In this document: one piece after another, positions 31,483 through 38,820 of the stretch
Position numbering within the stretch: the stretch's first letter is position 1
How the letters are laid out: the number at the start of each line of letters is the position of its first letter
DNA from: Amniculibacterium aquaticum
Lineage (GTDB): Bacteria; Bacteroidota; Bacteroidia; Flavobacteriales; Weeksellaceae
Assembly: GCF_003852705.1 (NCBI RefSeq)
Contig: NZ_REFA01000001.1
Coordinates: 186,001-250,000, forward strand
DNA: 64,000 nucleotides
Direction of reading: 5' to 3'
Translations under genes and position numbers: made by a program
Notes under the pieces: generated by a model
Told to the model about the DNA's origin: nothing
What the model saw: only the letters and a program-made list of their open reading frames with translations
The model's database searches: none

Positions 31483-32659
31483 AGTTTGTGTGTAGTTTAG
31501 AGAATATTTTTTTAAAATGCATAAAGTCTATTTCAAAATTACTTTGGGTGTGTTTTTCATCATTATCATATAATTGAGAGATTAACTCTACATCAAATAT
31601 TTGCGCTAAATTAGAAAAAGCAGCAAATTCTTTTGCGTTTTTGGGTAGAAAACAAATGGCTTTGGGCTGGTTTCTACAAAAAATTAGATTAGCCCATGCA
31701 GCTCCCGAAATACCAATAATACTTTTTGCGTGGTAAAAATAACTTATTTGTTTTTCTAAGTCCAATTCCTCCAGGCAGATTGCCTTGTAATTATACTGAG
31801 AAAGAAAATCTACGATTAGGTCTTGGTTTTTTGCAATACGATGAGTGTTTTTTCGATATAAAAAAATATTTTCTGCCGTTTTGGGTTCTAATTTAATAGA
31901 TTGCAATATTTTATCTGAAAATTTTTGAGTTAACTCTGCATTAAAGTAGGTGCCGTCGGATTTTATTTCATCATCAAAACGATTGAATTGTACATGGTTG
32001 AAGTCATTGATATACCACAGTTTATTCACTTCATAAAGTTGATTTTTGTTAAGGTAAATTAAGTTTGCATTATCATTTATTAAATTTAAAATTTTCTGCA
32101 TACTCGGATATTTTATAACCGTTTCGCTTACCAAAATAGTGGTTTCTAATTGGGTATCAAATAATAAAAGTTTTGGAGCAATTTCCACTAAAAAATGATA
32201 CCAATTCCAACTTCCATTACCTCCTAAAAAAAAACCGGAATTTATTTTTTCAGTCGGGCTGATTTTTATTTTAGCATTTGTCGTATCGTGCCATTGTACA
32301 AAACCTTCATTATATCTCTCGTCATTATATCGGCATACTCGTAATTTTTTTAGATACATAATTGCTGTGCTGTCTGCATCTACAATTGCATTTTTGAATT
32401 GAAACAATGCTGTTTCTGGACTTTTTACGACTATTGATTTAGGTGGGTTGTTTGTATCGAATCTTGGTAGCCAACTGGTAAATCGAGATGCAGAGAAATA
32501 GGTTTTTATCCTCTCTTTTTCGCAATTTTTGAGATCCTCTATTTTTACAATTTGATGGGTAGCATGATATTTTTTGTTAAAAATGAATTTAACAAAAGGA
32601 TTAGAAATGTTTTCGTTGTTTTTTATATAGTGTACAATTTTTCTTATAATTGCTTCCAT
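31469..32659 (-). CDS. glycosyltransferase family 61-like protein
   Basis: 396 residues. It has the GT61 (DUF563) layout: FLGGNGSWNWYHFLVEIAPKL in the middle (WYHFLVE is the family hallmark), then ENIFLYRKN and a C-terminal IIGISGAAWANLIFCRNQPKAIC donor-site region. The donor sugar is unknown; bacterial GT61 members are common in polysaccharide loci. Its first 16 bp overlap the wzt-like gene, indicating coupling to export functions. It is cytoplasmic, with no membrane helices. Confidence 0.8.
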   Translation of the reverse strand: MEAIIRKIVHYIKNNENISNPFVKFIFNKKYHATHQIVKIEDLKNCEKERIKTYFSASRFTSWLPRFDTNNPPKSIVVKSPETALFQFKNAIVDADSTAIMYLKKLRVCRYNDERYNEGFVQWHDTTNAKIKISPTEKINSGFFLGGNGSWNWYHFLVEIAPKLLLFDTQLETTILVSETVIKYPSMQKILNLINDNANLIYLNKNQLYEVNKLWYINDFNHVQFNRFDDEIKSDGTYFNAELTQKFSDKILQSIKLEPKTAENIFLYRKNTHRIAKNQDLIVDFLSQYNYKAICLEELDLEKQISYFYHAKSIIGISGAAWANLIFCRNQPKAICFLPKNAKEFAAFSNLAQIFDVELISQLYDNDEKHTQSNFEIDFMHFKKIFSKLHTNYEKY

Positions 32660-33906
32660 TCAAAATTTGTTTTTACAAACCCGGGTTCTATCCCCATCCA
32701 TTCTCCAAAGTCTTTACTTCTTTCTTTAATTCTAAAGGTAAGTAGGTCTTCTTCATACAATACTGCTTCATGAGTATTTTTTATAATGTAGAGTGAAATA
32801 ACATATTCTCCCACATTAAAAAAATCTTTTGGAATATCGCAAATTATTTGGTTGTTTCCTCCTTTTAATTGGGTATTGTATGCATTATTCATGGTAAACA
32901 ACACATCATTATTAAAGTTTTTTACGACATACGAAAGATGATATTTGTTTTCAGAATCATAAATGTTTATATCGGTAAGTAGGTTGAATTTTTCGTTTTC
33001 TTCAAAATCTTTTTCTTGGGCTTTAAATTTTTCATCAACCAACTCTACTTTATTAAGCTGGAATAATTTATTATTAAAATCCCTATTTTCACCGAGGATT
33101 ACAGTATTTCCAAAGGATTGTTTGTCTCCATTGTACTCGCTTAGAGCTCTTTCTATTGCCCCGGTATATAATATTTTACCATTAGACATGACGATTCCTG
33201 TTTTGCAAAGTGATTTCACCGCCGTCATATTATGGCTCACAAACAAAACCGTTCTCCCTTCGCCTTTGGATACATCACCCATTTTACCCAAACATTTTTT
33301 CTGGAACTCGGCATCGCCAACGGCTAAAACTTCATCTACAATCAGGATTTCGGATTCCAAATGGGCGGCAACGGCAAACGCCAATCGCACATACATTCCG
33401 CTGGAATATCTTTTTACCGGCGTATCGATGTATCGTTCTACTCCAGAGAAATCGACAATCTCATCAAATTTTCTTGCAATTTCTTTTCGGGTCATCCCAA
33501 GGATAGCACCGTTAAGGAAAACATTTTCCCTGCCCGTCATTTCGGGGTGGAAACCTGTACCTACTTCCAATAAAGAGGCAATTCTACCTTGGGTATAGAT
33601 TTTTCCGGTGGTGGGTTTGGTTACTTTACTTAGTAATTTCAAGAGAGTCGATTTTCCAGCACCGTTTCTCCCGATAATGCCCACGGCATCGCCTTGTTCT
33701 ATTTCGAAATTGATGTCTCGAAGAGACCATACATATTCAGAATTTCCTTTGGATGTTCTGTCGTTGGCTTCGCCAATTTTCAGATACGGATCTTCTTTAC
33801 CGCGGATTTGAGCCCAAAAACGGTTCAGATCATGGGAAATGGTCCCGGTTCCGACTTGTCCCAGTCGGTATTGTTTGGATATATTTTCAGCTTTTAGTGC
33901 GAGCAT
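32644..33906 (-). CDS. wzt: polysaccharide ABC transporter ATPase with Wzt-type C-terminal domain
   Basis: 420 residues. ABC domain: Walker A GRNGAGKST, signature YSSGMYVRL, Walker B ILIVDEVLAVGD and VLFVSHNM. From about residue 270 a separate beta-rich domain (LLTDINIYDSENKYHLSYVV) resembles the carbohydrate-binding domain of Wzt, which recognises the finished, often terminally modified, O-polysaccharide. It is partnered with the permease at 34416. The two genes, normally adjacent, are split here by the four-helix-bundle cassette, whose hexamer array ends 8 bp before this ATG. Confidence 0.92.
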   Translation of the reverse strand: MLALKAENISKQYRLGQVGTGTISHDLNRFWAQIRGKEDPYLKIGEANDRTSKGNSEYVWSLRDINFEIEQGDAVGIIGRNGAGKSTLLKLLSKVTKPTTGKIYTQGRIASLLEVGTGFHPEMTGRENVFLNGAILGMTRKEIARKFDEIVDFSGVERYIDTPVKRYSSGMYVRLAFAVAAHLESEILIVDEVLAVGDAEFQKKCLGKMGDVSKGEGRTVLFVSHNMTAVKSLCKTGIVMSNGKILYTGAIERALSEYNGDKQSFGNTVILGENRDFNNKLFQLNKVELVDEKFKAQEKDFEENEKFNLLTDINIYDSENKYHLSYVVKNFNNDVLFTMNNAYNTQLKGGNNQIICDIPKDFFNVGEYVISLYIIKNTHEAVLYEEDLLTFRIKERSKDFGEWMGIEPGFVKTNFEWKQL

Positions 33907-33914
33907 TTGTGTGA

Positions 33915-33998
33915 GGTTTAGGTTTAGACTAAGGCTAAGGCTAAGATTAAGGCTAAGGCTTAGGCTAAGGTTAAGGCTTAGGCTAAGATTAAGGCTTA
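33915..33998. repeat. array of 14 degenerate hexamers, 3' of the four-helix gene
   Basis: Fourteen 6-bp units in perfect register on the plus strand, all fitting GRYTWA (GGTTTA, GACTAA, GGCTAA, GATTAA, GGCTTA, GGTTAA). It runs from near the wzt start codon into the last codons (SKP-stop) of the four-helix gene, whose TAA is inside the array. Confidence 0.95.
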
Positions 33999-34354
33999 GA
34001 GTCTAAAGTTTTTATTATTTTATTGATATGATGGATGCAATCGTCTATTTTAGTACAAATATTTTGGATATCGGTTGAGTTAAAGTATTTAGTCTGTTGT
34101 CCATAGATAAGATGACTTTTTGTTTCGTAAGCAGAACCTTTTGCAAAGTAATAAAAGTTGATTTTGTCTTTGGTGTGAAATCTGCCAAACGCTTCAGCAA
34201 TATTTGCAGAAACACTCTCAGCCGATCTGCGGATTTGAGATTTCAAGGCATAATCTTCGGATTTAGGAAGAGGGCAGCTAAGATGAAAGACTTCAACCGC
34301 AATTTCCATTGCTGTAATCCAAACCGGCATCTCTGTAAAATCTTTATACATCAT
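33989..34354 (-). CDS. four-helix-bundle protein (S23 / bAvd-like)
   Basis: 121 residues: MMYKDFTEMPVWITAMEIA... with the family signature SQIRRSAESVSANIAEAFGR (residues 39-58), then YFAKGSAYETKSHLIYG. This is the TIGR02436/PF05635 family, first seen in intervening sequences of 23S rRNA and structurally related to Avd of diversity-generating retroelements. Biochemical role unknown. It separates wzt from wzm. Inverted hexamer arrays touch both ends: 11 units end at the start codon, and 14 units contain the stop. Its codons are otherwise ordinary, and the protein looks intact. Confidence 0.92.
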   Translation of the reverse strand: MMYKDFTEMPVWITAMEIAVEVFHLSCPLPKSEDYALKSQIRRSAESVSANIAEAFGRFHTKDKINFYYFAKGSAYETKSHLIYGQQTKYFNSTDIQNICTKIDDCIHHINKIIKTLDSKP

Positions 34355-34420
34355 CTAAATCTTTTGCTTAATCTAAATCTAAACCTTAGCCTAAACCTTA
34401 ATCTTAACCTCAACCTTAAA
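34355..34420. repeat. array of 11 degenerate hexamers, 5' of the four-helix gene
   Basis: Eleven 6-bp units (CTAAAT, CTTTTG, CTTAAT, CTAAAC, CTTAGC, CTTAAC, CTCAAC and others). Most fit CTWARY, which is the reverse complement of the GRYTWA units on the other side, so the arrays are inverted. It spans from the four-helix start codon to the stop codon (34416-34418) of the permease gene. Confidence 0.95.
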
Positions 34421-35264
34421 CCGTGTCCATAAAAGATTTTTCTACTTTGTTAAAGATAAGAGTTCCTATGGCAAGTAGGATTAAAATGATCCCTGTACTT
34501 ACGGCCAAAATCATGGGCGAGAAGTCGCCAGAACCCAGCCAACCGTATTTGAAACATTCAAAAATTCCGGTAAGTGGATTGTAAATAGCAATTTTTTTGA
34601 AAATCCCACTCAATGCAGAAAGGGGATAGATTACCGGCGTGGCGTACATCAACAAACTTACCCCAAAGCTGAGAAGCATTTGCAAATCTCTGTATTTGGT
34701 GGTCAGTGCCGAGAAAATCATTCCCATACCCAGGGCAAAAATGGCCATTAGGAAAATGAGAAATGGGGTAGCCAAAATCCAAATGTTGGGCTGTATTTCG
34801 CCTTCAGAAAAATAATAGATCCAAGCGATCAGAAAGAGCGCAAACTGCACCCCGAATTTCATCAAATTGGAGATGACAATGGTAATGGGCATCACCAATC
34901 TGGGGAAATAGACTTTCCCGAAAATATTGGCATTGGCGGTGAATACATTGGAAGTGCCCAACAAGCAGCTGGAGAAATAATTCCAAAGTGTTACACCTAC
35001 CAAGTAAAATAAAATTTTAGGCACACCGTCTGTTGATAGTCCGGCAATTTTACCGAAAACAACCAAATAAACGATGGTGGTAAGGATGGGATTGATGAAG
35101 AACCAGAGCGGCCCCAAGATGGTTTGTTTGAAACCCGAGACAAAATCCCTTTTAACAAACATATAGACCAAGTCTTTGTAACGCCAGACTTCTTTTAGTT
35201 TTAGGTCAAATAAAGAATGCTGACTTGCGATCACTTCAGTCCATTCTTGTTTCTTTTCTGTCAT
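34416..35264 (-). CDS. wzm: polysaccharide ABC transporter permease (Wzm type)
   Basis: 282 residues, six membrane helices, ABC-2 family. The cytoplasmic N-terminus is amphipathic (LFDLKLKEVWRYKDLVYMFVKRDF), followed by GPLWFFINPILTTIVYLVVFG, RLVMPITIVISNLMKFG, KYRDLQMLLSFGVSLLMYATPVIYP and VYPLS-type periplasmic ends. It forms the channel for O-polysaccharide export with the Wzt-like ATPase. Its last codons run into the hexamer array. A -7 box lies 15 bp upstream, so it may begin a sub-transcript. Confidence 0.92.
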   Translation of the reverse strand: MTEKKQEWTEVIASQHSLFDLKLKEVWRYKDLVYMFVKRDFVSGFKQTILGPLWFFINPILTTIVYLVVFGKIAGLSTDGVPKILFYLVGVTLWNYFSSCLLGTSNVFTANANIFGKVYFPRLVMPITIVISNLMKFGVQFALFLIAWIYYFSEGEIQPNIWILATPFLIFLMAIFALGMGMIFSALTTKYRDLQMLLSFGVSLLMYATPVIYPLSALSGIFKKIAIYNPLTGIFECFKYGWLGSGDFSPMILAVSTGIILILLAIGTLIFNKVEKSFMDTV

Positions 35265-37136: not shown

Positions 37137-37160
37137 TTTAAGTAATTGGTTTTTTGAGGG

Positions 37161-37216
37161 GTTGAGTTGTAAAGTCGTGAAGTTGTGAAGGTGTAAAGTT
37201 GTTAAGTAGTTAAATT
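37161..37216. repeat. array A: seven degenerate octamers
   Basis: Seven 8-bp units in perfect register: GTTGAGTT, GTAAAGTC, GTGAAGTT, GTGAAGGT, GTAAAGTT, GTTAAGTA, GTTAAATT. It contains the stop (37202-37204) and last codons of the frameshifted four-helix gene. Confidence 0.93.
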
Positions 37217-37578
37217 ATCGTTGTTTTTTAGTTTATTATAAAAGGAATTAAGTTTGTTTGTGATGCTTTCAATTTTTTTCCTTAGCTCTATGTATTTTTC
37301 AGTTTCAATCCAAGTCAATTCATGTGAAATAATTAAAAAATTTAATACCTCTATACTTGAAGAGTACGCTTGGTTGATAAATCTTGCTTTATCAGCATTG
37401 GTTTTTCTTGAAATCCCTTCTGCAATATTTGCGGAGATACTGAATGTTACTCTTCTGATTTGATTCGTAATTCCGTATTGTTCAATTTTAGGAAATCGTC
37501 CGATACTTTGAAAATTATTATTCCTAAATCTTTTGCTTCTTTCCAAACTTCCAATCTTTCAAAATAATAAATTTTCAT
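37202..37578 (-). pseudogene. frameshifted four-helix-bundle (S23 / bAvd-like) gene
   Basis: From the ATG at 37578 the frame reads MKIYYFERLEVWKEAKDLG...KVSDDF and is then lost. From about 37492 the -1 frame continues as PKIEQYGITNQIRR...SISANIAEGISRK to the stop at 37202. Joined, they give a normal 125-residue TIGR02436-type protein, so one base (a C in a TTTCC run) appears to be missing near 37490-37495. It could be a decayed gene or an assembly error. It is flanked by octamer arrays A, B and C in the same way that the intact copy at 33989 is flanked by hexamers. Confidence 0.85.
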
Positions 37579-37592
37579 TTTTATTTATTTTT

Positions 37593-37648
37593 GTTGATTC
37601 GTTAATTCGTTGATTTGTAAATTTGTAAAGTTTTGAAGCTGTTAGTAG
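37593..37648. repeat. array B: seven degenerate octamers
   Basis: GTTGATTC, GTTAATTC, GTTGATTT, GTAAATTT, GTAAAGTT, TTGAAGCT, GTTAGTAG; same orientation and unit length as array A. It lies 15 bp upstream of the four-helix start codon. Confidence 0.85.
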
Positions 37649-37685: not shown

Positions 37686-37741
37686 TTTTAAACACCTTTA
37701 CCAATTAACATCTTCACATCTTCACAACTTTACATCTTCAC
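37686..37741. repeat. array C: seven inverted octamers
   Basis: TTTTAAAC, ACCTTTAC, CAATTAAC, ATCTTCAC, ATCTTCAC, AACTTTAC, ATCTTCAC: the reverse complement of the array A pattern. The rmlB stop codon (TCA at 37738-37740 on the plus strand) lies in the last unit. Confidence 0.92.
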
Positions 37742-38820
37742 ACTTTATACTGCGAATTATAATACGACATATAATCTCCACTTGTTACGCTTTCCAGCCA
37801 TTCTTTGTTTTCAAGGAACCAATCTATGGTTTTGGATAGACCTTCCTCAAAAGTGACTGAGGGTTTCCAACCCAAATCGTTATGGAGTTTTGTGGCATCT
37901 ATGGCATATCTCTTGTCGTGTCCAGGTCTGTCTTTTACAAAGGTGATCAGTTTTTCAGAATAACCTGCGGGTTTGCCTGTTTTCTCGTCCACTTGTCTGA
38001 TGAGCTCTTTTACCAGATCGATGTTTTGCCATTCATTCCAACCACCGATGTTGTAAGTCTCACCCGTTTTTGCTTCGTGGAAAATCTGGAAAATAGCCTT
38101 AGCGTGATCAATCACAAAAAGCCAATCTCTGGTGTATTTTCCATCGCCATAGATAGGAAGTGGTTTTTCATTCAAAATATTGTGTACACAAAGCGGAATT
38201 AATTTTTCCGGGAAATGATTGGGTCCGTAATTGTTCGAGCAATTCGATACGATGAAGGGCATTCCGTAAGTGTTGCCGTACGCTCTCACCAAATGATCGG
38301 ATGCGGCTTTGCTGGCAGAATACGGAGATTTCGGGTCGTAAGAAGTTTCTTCTGTGAAAAATCCCGTTTCGCCCAAAGCGCCATAAACTTCATCCGTAGA
38401 AACATGGTAGAAAAGATTCTTTCTGGTTTCATCCGGGAAATTCCCGTGTTGATGATCCGGATTCAGAGTCCAAAATTCTTTACAAAGATTCAGCAAGTTG
38501 GCGGTTCCGTTCACATTGGTGTTGATGAAGGCATTCGGGTCGGTGATGCTTCTGTCCACATGAGATTCGGCAGCCAAATGAACAACGGCATCCGGTTGGT
38601 GTTTTTCAAAAACCTTTCTCAGTTCCTCAGGTTGGGTGATGTCGGCTTTTTCGAAAATATAATTCGGTGAGTTTTCAATATCCTTCAGGTTCTCCAGGTT
38701 TCCGGCATAGGTGAGAGCATCCAGGTTGATGATGTTGGTATTTGGAAGGTTTTTCACAAATTCTCTAACCACATGCGACCCAATAAAACCGGCACCTCCG
38801 GTGATGATGATGTTTTTCAT
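37738..38820 (-). CDS. rmlB: dTDP-glucose 4,6-dehydratase RmlB
   Basis: 360 residues, extended SDR fold. NAD-binding GGAGFIGSHVV at residues 8-18, AAESHVDRSI, STDEVYGALG (catalytic Asp-Glu), SPYSASKAASD (YxxxK) and SNCSNNYGPNHFPEKLIP. It converts dTDP-glucose to dTDP-4-keto-6-deoxyglucose, the substrate of the FdtA-type ketoisomerase. It is the first gene of the long minus-strand operon; a -7 box lies about 30 bp upstream. Its last codon and stop run into octamer array C. Confidence 0.97.
   Translation of the reverse strand: MKNIIITGGAGFIGSHVVREFVKNLPNTNIINLDALTYAGNLENLKDIENSPNYIFEKADITQPEELRKVFEKHQPDAVVHLAAESHVDRSITDPNAFINTNVNGTANLLNLCKEFWTLNPDHQHGNFPDETRKNLFYHVSTDEVYGALGETGFFTEETSYDPKSPYSASKAASDHLVRAYGNTYGMPFIVSNCSNNYGPNHFPEKLIPLCVHNILNEKPLPIYGDGKYTRDWLFVIDHAKAIFQIFHEAKTGETYNIGGWNEWQNIDLVKELIRQVDEKTGKPAGYSEKLITFVKDRPGHDKRYAIDATKLHNDLGWKPSVTFEEGLSKTIDWFLENKEWLESVTSGDYMSYYNSQYKV

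Follow-up and report, generated by a model that had tools for sequence, protein, structure and literature searches.

The short gene that separates a wzm-like from a wzt-like gene in Amniculibacterium aquaticum, together with the two inverted repeat arrays that frame it, is, with a probability of roughly 0.6, a mobile element of the intervening-sequence (IVS) type that has settled in an operon of protein genes rather than in a 23S rRNA gene. Array-flanked cassettes of this kind are real and widespread. Their general design is a PF05635 gene set between two inverted arrays of short units, each unit consisting of a conserved core and variable positions, with the whole filling the gap from the stop codon of one cistron to the start codon of the next, in the sense direction of the host operon. 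Annotations of PF05635 proteins are common and assign them no function. The PF05635 protein is called IVP below; Lnnn and Gnnn denote loci and genomes, and G000 is the genome of the window, that is, of the whole 64,000-nucleotide stretch of DNA that was analysed. At the wzm-wzt junction the window contains the following features.

34416..35264, minus strand: upstream neighbour, a gene for a wzm-like ABC-2 permease
34355..34420, minus strand: upstream arm, 66 nt, 11 hexamer units, G-rich on the gene strand, overlapping the wzm stop
33989..34354, minus strand: PF05635/TIGR02436 gene (S23p, "four helix bundle"), 121 aa, frame intact; PF05635 105.2 bits, TIGR02436 106.4 bits
33915..33998, minus strand: downstream arm, 84 nt, 14 inverted hexamer units, C-rich, with the stop of the gene inside
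32644..33906, minus strand: downstream neighbour, a gene for a wzt-like ABC ATPase
33908..34432, minus strand: entire cassette; predicted sense-RNA fold with a long array-array stem and the gene as loop

The first-pass annotation had counted 14 hexamers of the pattern GRYTWA on one side of the gene, and all 14 consecutive units at 33915-33998 match that pattern; the 11 CTWARY units that it placed on the other side, all in register, do form an array at 34355-34420, but only 8 of the 11 fit exactly, the deviants being the units at 34361, 34409 and 34415. Its description of arrays that meet the start of the gene and hold both its stop and that of the permease is correct: the start codon (34352-34354) directly adjoins the first unit of the upstream arm, the stop codon (33989-33991) falls within the downstream array, and the last unit of the upstream arm contains the wzm stop (34416-34418), while wzt begins at 33906, directly past the downstream array. 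No other run of at least four such hexamers was found on either strand elsewhere within the 64 kb window, and Tandem Repeats Finder (TRF) scores for the arrays reached 109 and 61. The only Pfam or NCBIfam matches of both cassette genes in the window are to PF05635 and related four-helix models, with no transposase of the REPIN/RAYT or IS/MITE kind by the same searches; Rfam gave only a sub-threshold match near the locus, and PADLOC gave none. The hexamer motif of the window cassette has 16 matches in G000 (control 0), of which 9 fall in the cassette itself and 7 at four other places, all of them arrays that lack an IVP gene. At L304 (about 940-1000) an array with this hexamer motif is translated as the C-terminal tail of an open reading frame (KAKVEVKVKAKAKAEAKTK).

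Array flanks are a trait of the gene family rather than of this one locus. All seven PF05635 genes of G000 carry short-period arrays on both sides, as judged by eye, with units that are specific to the locus except in the paralogues L006 and L007; these two similar cassettes, both near contig ends, have a GTGAT motif in common and differ in their series of units and in their 5' leaders. PF05635 is present in at least 40 of 59 relatives. For scoring, 96 loci were assembled, 36 from search output and 60 taken in list order among the matches listed, the latter choice biasing the sample toward high scorers; their 99 gene matches yielded, after four with short flanks had been dropped, 95 genes from 33 genomes (that of the window and 32 relatives), all with flanks of 100 nt or more on both sides. 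When the upstream flank was locally aligned with the reverse complement of the downstream flank, the inverted arm score reached 14 or more in 67 of 95 PF05635 genes as against 3 of the 48 other window ORFs that served as controls. Same-orientation scores reached this value in 14 of 95, and the inverted alignment was the better of the two in 79 genes and the worse in 13. The first-pass annotation had proposed comparing periodic inverted flanks around PF05635 genes with those of other genes, and this comparison was strongly positive: against dinucleotide shuffles, p was at most 0.01 in 69 of 95 PF05635 genes and in 2 of 180 controls (the first 180 ORFs from the window and ten stretches), and at most 0.05 in 78 and 15, respectively, leaving 17 of the 95 loci with no significant arm match (p>0.05).

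The two arms of a cassette also belong to each other. Among all 95 downstream flanks, the gene's own was the best partner of the upstream flank in 48 cases and among the top five in 79, and within single genomes the own downstream array was best for 47 of 51 upstream arrays (10 expected). Periods are mostly 6-8 bp, with units that vary by locus, and were equal on both sides in 46 of 49 clear cases (32 sevens, 10 eights and 4 sixes). Simple sequence repeats arise by slippage and need no partner array, whereas these arrays are inverted and partner-specific. A gene-blind scan of 464 kb, comprising the window and 400 kb of relatives in which no PF05635 place occurs among the matches listed, returned strong inverted periodic pairs at only four places: the two IVP genes of the window (three pairs) and two gene-less places in one stretch of G028.

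Cassettes of the same build recur well beyond the Bacteroidota. In a GTDB set of 78 usable loci out of 80, themselves the best 80 of 584, the arm score was at least 14 in 44, the own partner was best in 32 and among the top five in 50, and same-orientation matches of at least 14 occurred in 11; by record title, the positives include, in addition to Bacteroidota, Cloacimonadota, Atribacterota, Ignavibacteria, Omnitrophica, Sedimentisphaerales and Gastranaerophilales. Among PLSDB plasmids, PF05635 was found in 29 records, mostly cyanobacterial; of the 11 examined, 8 scored at least 15, and L177, L184 and L185 were weak. At some loci (for example L181, L196, L213, L233 and L248) the clearest arrays have the same orientation on both sides. 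The four-helix genes of two cyanobacterial plasmids, L181 and L182, lie with long 7-bp arrays between cas6 and cas4.

The arms follow a common grammar. Of 71 upstream arms, 64 are G-rich on the gene strand, and 66 of 71 downstream arms are C-rich there. The units of an array vary mainly at particular phases (chi-square summed over 71 arrays 704, versus 387 ± 20 under random substitution, a figure that duplication of units after mutation may have inflated), and the resulting units consist of a core and variable positions, such as GTTGNNN in L001 and L030. Templated copying of one arm from the other was considered and is unsupported: a unit permutation found the order of units copied between arms at p<0.05 in 0 of 56 loci, with perfectly matching arms at a few (L052, L090 and L019). 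In a Mantel test, array motif tracked protein lineage only above 50% protein identity, pairs above that level carrying the signal, and some of the pairs counted there as different junctions (L074/L062, L029/L028) may share one that neighbour matching missed; given this restriction to close proteins, co-inheritance explains the agreement as well as recognition does.

Whether these arms act as RNA bears on the earlier suggestion that the two arrays of the window cassette pair in the transcript and leave the gene in a loop. Such a fold is indeed predicted, with a minimum free energy of -136.2 against -104.25 ± 6.51 (z -4.91) and 64 pairs between the arms, but two tests gave no sign of selection at the RNA level: arm mismatches showed no excess of G-U over A-C (67 vs 88), and duplex pairing energy did not differ between sense and antisense (Wilcoxon p 0.94), so that selection on a sense RNA stem is not seen.

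The gene is mostly oriented so as to be read with its host operon. Both neighbours are co-directional with the IVP gene at 85 of 91 loci, as against 158 of 325 (49%) for ordinary genes, and at 65 of 73 GTDB loci; 3 of 9 loci on cyanobacterial plasmids have it antisense to both neighbours. Over 62 loci, the median distance from the upstream stop codon to the beginning of the upstream arm is 2 nt, and that from the end of the downstream arm to the next start is 14 nt. Identical junctions are occupied in different genera, and the proteins cluster by junction (13 changes, with a minimum of 11 and a shuffled mean of 36.4); vertical inheritance seems to account for most copies at a shared junction. 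The best tree places more than one IVP lineage at some junctions, with 3 changes needed for fadJ-fadA, 2 for fadA-acd and 3 for rfbB-rfbA (gene names after family matches); when strongly supported branches alone are considered, a second origin is forced only for fadJ-fadA. The dN/dS ratio was 0.05-0.11 in five ortholog pairs with dS of 0.33-0.59 and 0.34 in one very close pair, the remaining pairs being near or at saturation, and by these ratios the cassette gene is under purifying selection.

A second cassette in the window occupies the junction between an rfbB-like and an rfbA-like gene, named after their families, and comprises the following parts.

37705..37742, minus strand: upstream 8-bp arm
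37590..37638, minus strand: additional inner 8-bp array that separates the upstream arm from the gene and is oriented like a downstream arm (C-rich)
37202..37546, minus strand: second PF05635 gene, at the rfbB-rfbA junction
37154..37213, minus strand: downstream 8-bp arm

This gene, taken as 37202-37578, is probably frameshifted, with its N-terminal part (MKIYYFERLEVWKEAKDLG...) in another frame. A similar layout of three arrays is seen at the same junction in the relatives L062 and L072. Among 30 loci upstream of rfbA that were judged by eye, 14 pass directly from the rfbB-like end to rfbA, 8 hold an IVP gene, 3 a GxxExxY gene, 1 (L124) arms without a gene, and 4 something else. The three with a GxxExxY gene (L103, L110 and L114, two of them from the genus of the window) have it with 9-10 bp arrays where the window has its second IVP gene.

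GxxExxY (TIGR04256) cassettes are thus built around a different protein family and share with the second window cassette a position upstream of rfbA. Their genes were found in 23 of 59 relatives and not in G000. Of about 70 listed places, 30 loci were taken and all were scored; inverted degenerate arrays scored at least 14 in 18 of 30, and neighbours were co-directional in 27 of 29. The period was 9-10 in 14 of 20 clear GxxExxY arrays as against 7-8 in 96 of 138 IVP arrays, the remaining IVP periods being mostly 14, or twice 7. The period thus depends on the protein family, which suggests that the protein is involved with the array.

Comparison of empty and filled sites lends good support to mobility of the cassettes. 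On Nostoc plasmids, the site behind a traM-like gene occurs in three states: it is empty (51-52 nt) in L268, L269 and L273, it carries an IVP cassette in L180 and L271, and it carries a pair of arrays with no gene in L270 and L274. The nrdB-nrdA junction of L272 is likewise empty, and that of L178 is filled directly after the nrdA stop. At these plasmid junctions arrays and gene come and go together. The gene-less L274 differs from L273 by a clean insertion with a possible 3-bp duplication, and in the best empty/filled IVP pairs of Nostoc the insertions are not clean, part of the target having been replaced. The cassettes of L180 and L271 differ at 1 of 363 positions in the gene and by two substitutions and one 7-nt unit in the arrays, amid neighbours that differ at 127 of 711, 23 of 417 and 12 of 296 positions (the last with 7 alignment end gaps excluded). 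Such near-identity amid diverged neighbours points to recent sharing of the cassette, through either insertion or recombination, the latter being possible because the low-divergence tract extends slightly into traM. In G028, one gene-less pair resembles the motif of that genome's IVP cassette at fadJ-fadA; an exact piece of the motif occurs 7 times at 4 places: in the cassette, in a pair of arms that encloses no gene and stands between two genes (L281), and in two solitary arrays, one of the upstream type (L278) and one of the downstream type (L275). The reversed pattern occurs nowhere in that genome. The first-pass annotation had held that arrays at the same junction without the gene would speak against its proposal. 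Such arrays exist (L124, and L270 and L274 in Nostoc), yet they stand beside truly empty sites that lack arrays, which suits a mobile family with gene-less derivatives and does not amount to a refutation. Dispersed gene-less relatives of the flanks of one gene family are also found in REPIN/RAYT systems, which consist of palindromes and a transposase-like RAYT, whereas the cassettes have arrays and a four-helix protein.

The closest known parallel lies in ribosomal RNA. The 23S rRNA IVSs of Coxiella and Leptospira, like the cassettes, place a PF05635-type ORF between arms that are inverted in the transcript (PMC4990558). The window cassette shares with the ORF-bearing class of these elements its S23p/PF05635 ORF and terminal inverted repeats that, in the predicted fold, can pair in the transcript; it differs in lying between wzm and wzt instead of within an rRNA gene. 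Both window cassettes further differ from rRNA IVSs in having multi-unit arms of a locus-specific unit and in that excision would be deduced by analogy. In Coxiella, the IVS is described as having two or three tandem GACAGAT heptamers, depending on the strain, just upstream of the S23p ORF, and a terminal stem of 28 bp, and as being excised by RNase III (PMC4990558). Its ORF is, according to the authors, decaying and not expressed, in contrast with the conserved cassette genes described here (PMC4990558). A direct link is provided by L186, from Azospirillum lipoferum plasmid AZO_p2, where a PF05635 gene between inverted heptad arrays lies in sense orientation inside a 23S rRNA gene, the Rfam LSU model spanning the 1915 bases; among the collected IVP loci it is the only one in an rRNA gene by a crude primer-site test, with Rfam confirming L186. 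Since this 23S IVS has the same arms, the operon cassettes are probably counterparts of rRNA IVSs with array-type ends. The earlier claim of an undescribed type of element therefore calls for moderation, as rRNA IVSs with such an ORF were already known. Both of its readings, as a small genetic element and as an RNA-structured island tied to these proteins, came close, the RNA half as a structure that modelling predicts. No report of array-flanked PF05635 genes outside rRNA was found by targeted searches of the open full-text PMC literature, nor any paper on bAvd in the open PMC literature.

Catalogued heptad repeats may belong to the same picture. The GGGAATC repeats of Xanthomonas, of which two genomes have 70 and 75 inverted pairs, stand with the G strand shortly after stops and with the C strand shortly before starts, and are presented, with the Nostoc heptads GGGGA(C/T)T, as quadruplex-forming (PMC4692102). 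The main text of that source does not contain the term "S23" (PMC4692102). In G427, GGGAATC arrays flank the only IVP gene detected. This genome was the only one with (GGGAATC)3 among 369 of one class; its single PF05635 match lies between mutually inverted GGGAATC arrays, right after one stop and right before the next ATG, at what reads as an accB-accC junction, and its reading frame appears broken. The prediction that an IVP cassette in a GGGAATC genome would carry GGGAATC thus held in one case of one, which is a good sign and no proof. Elsewhere in G427 (L310, L313, L316 and L317) there are three short-spacer inverted GGGAATC pairs and one solo C-type array abutting an ATG. The TAACTGA direct repeats of Beggiatoaceae, sporadic also in Cyanobacteria and Bacteroidetes, resemble the cassettes by description in being heptads close before starts, but they have one fixed unit, and the main text contains neither "S23" nor "four helix" (PMC4679880).

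These observations allow a mechanism to be proposed. Upon transcription the arms would pair and leave the gene in the loop, and RNase III, whose gene is present in the host, might cut the hairpin out as it does from rRNA IVSs, leaving both adjoining cistrons intact. As the cassette is bounded by a stop codon on one side and lies ahead of a start codon on the other, its excision would spare the two host cistrons, and insertions should be tolerable at cistron borders for that reason. An account in terms of RNA alone is opposed by the lack of a G-U excess, by the equal energies of the two strands and by the 3 antisense loci among 9 on cyanobacterial plasmids. It is attractive to suppose that a pentameric ring protein recognises the arrays via their repeated cores, and such recognition may regulate or mobilise the element and its gene-less copies. 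A four-helix pentamer fold is that of Avd of diversity-generating retroelements and is common to Avd and IVP, and the solved relatives 2gsc and 2rld have five chains. The Xanthomonas protein is a homopentameric toroid, and proteins of the S23p type are described as having no known function (PMC4990558).

Among the alternatives, neutral slippage, by which a microsatellite-prone spacer would have expanded on both sides of an ordinary gene, could account for the single unit by which L180 and L271 differ, and short bacterial arrays have been ascribed to polymerase slippage in the literature (PMC4679880, PMC4692102). However, slippage does not yield inverted arrays of one unit on both sides, it leaves unexplained both the G-rich-before, C-rich-after polarity (64/71 and 66/71) and the tie of strong inverted pairs to IVP genes, and it is disfavoured by the within-genome pairing (47/51) and by the variation at fixed unit phases (704 versus 387 ± 20, again subject to inflation by unit duplication), all of which renders it highly improbable. 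An ordinary transposon with terminal repeats and a passenger gene, now decayed, would provide inverted ends and gene-less, MITE-like copies, yet the ends here are arrays of a locus-specific unit with no conserved end sequence, the sole family-matching ORF in both window cassettes is PF05635, target duplication is not established, and the ORF is the conserved part; little credence can be given to this scenario either.

Somewhat better placed, and still unlikely, is a domesticated, RNA-structured regulator, a vertically inherited operon gene whose ring binds the arrays in its own message, much as TRAP binds messages, and tunes its neighbours, mobility being ancient only. The clustering of proteins by junction (13 changes versus 36.4 when shuffled), the low dN/dS in five pairs (0.05-0.11), the core-plus-variable units and the solo arrays beside stops and starts elsewhere would all suit such a regulator. 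Recent sharing of a cassette between Nostoc plasmids points instead to continuing mobility, as do the junctions to which the best tree assigns several lineages and gene-less copies of the same motif, and a reader of single-stranded RNA has no need of an inverted partner. The strong sense bias and the location inside transcripts, rRNA included, could alternatively reflect a retro-element, in which excised IVS RNA is reinserted into transcripts and reverse-transcribed back with IVP acting like its homologue Avd, a kinship that would favour such a route. However, no PF00078 (RVT_1) reverse transcriptase, which a diversity-generating retroelement with Avd would have, was found in G000, 3 of 9 cyanobacterial plasmid loci are antisense, and the arms carry no sense-RNA signal, which makes this route decidedly improbable.

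Beyond the preferred reading of the cassette as an IVS-type mobile element in an operon, a broader one can be put forward tentatively, as possible though short of likely. It would unite mobile elements from across the bacteria in one class, their ends being set not by a fixed sequence but by a grammar (a period of 6-10 bp, a core with variable positions, G-richness ahead of the gene and C-richness behind it), and every lineage would possess a unit of its own that its own ring protein reads; rRNA IVSs, the Xanthomonas GGGAATC pairs and several cyanobacterial heptads would then be members or gene-less derivatives, with GxxExxY cassettes as a parallel branch. Linking PF05635 proteins, the ownerless heptads of Cyanobacteria and Xanthomonas and the rRNA IVSs in this way would explain the origin of the repeats and would give the PF05635 protein a testable ligand, namely the unit of its own array. 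It would also suggest that removable hairpins are a common interruption of operon messages.
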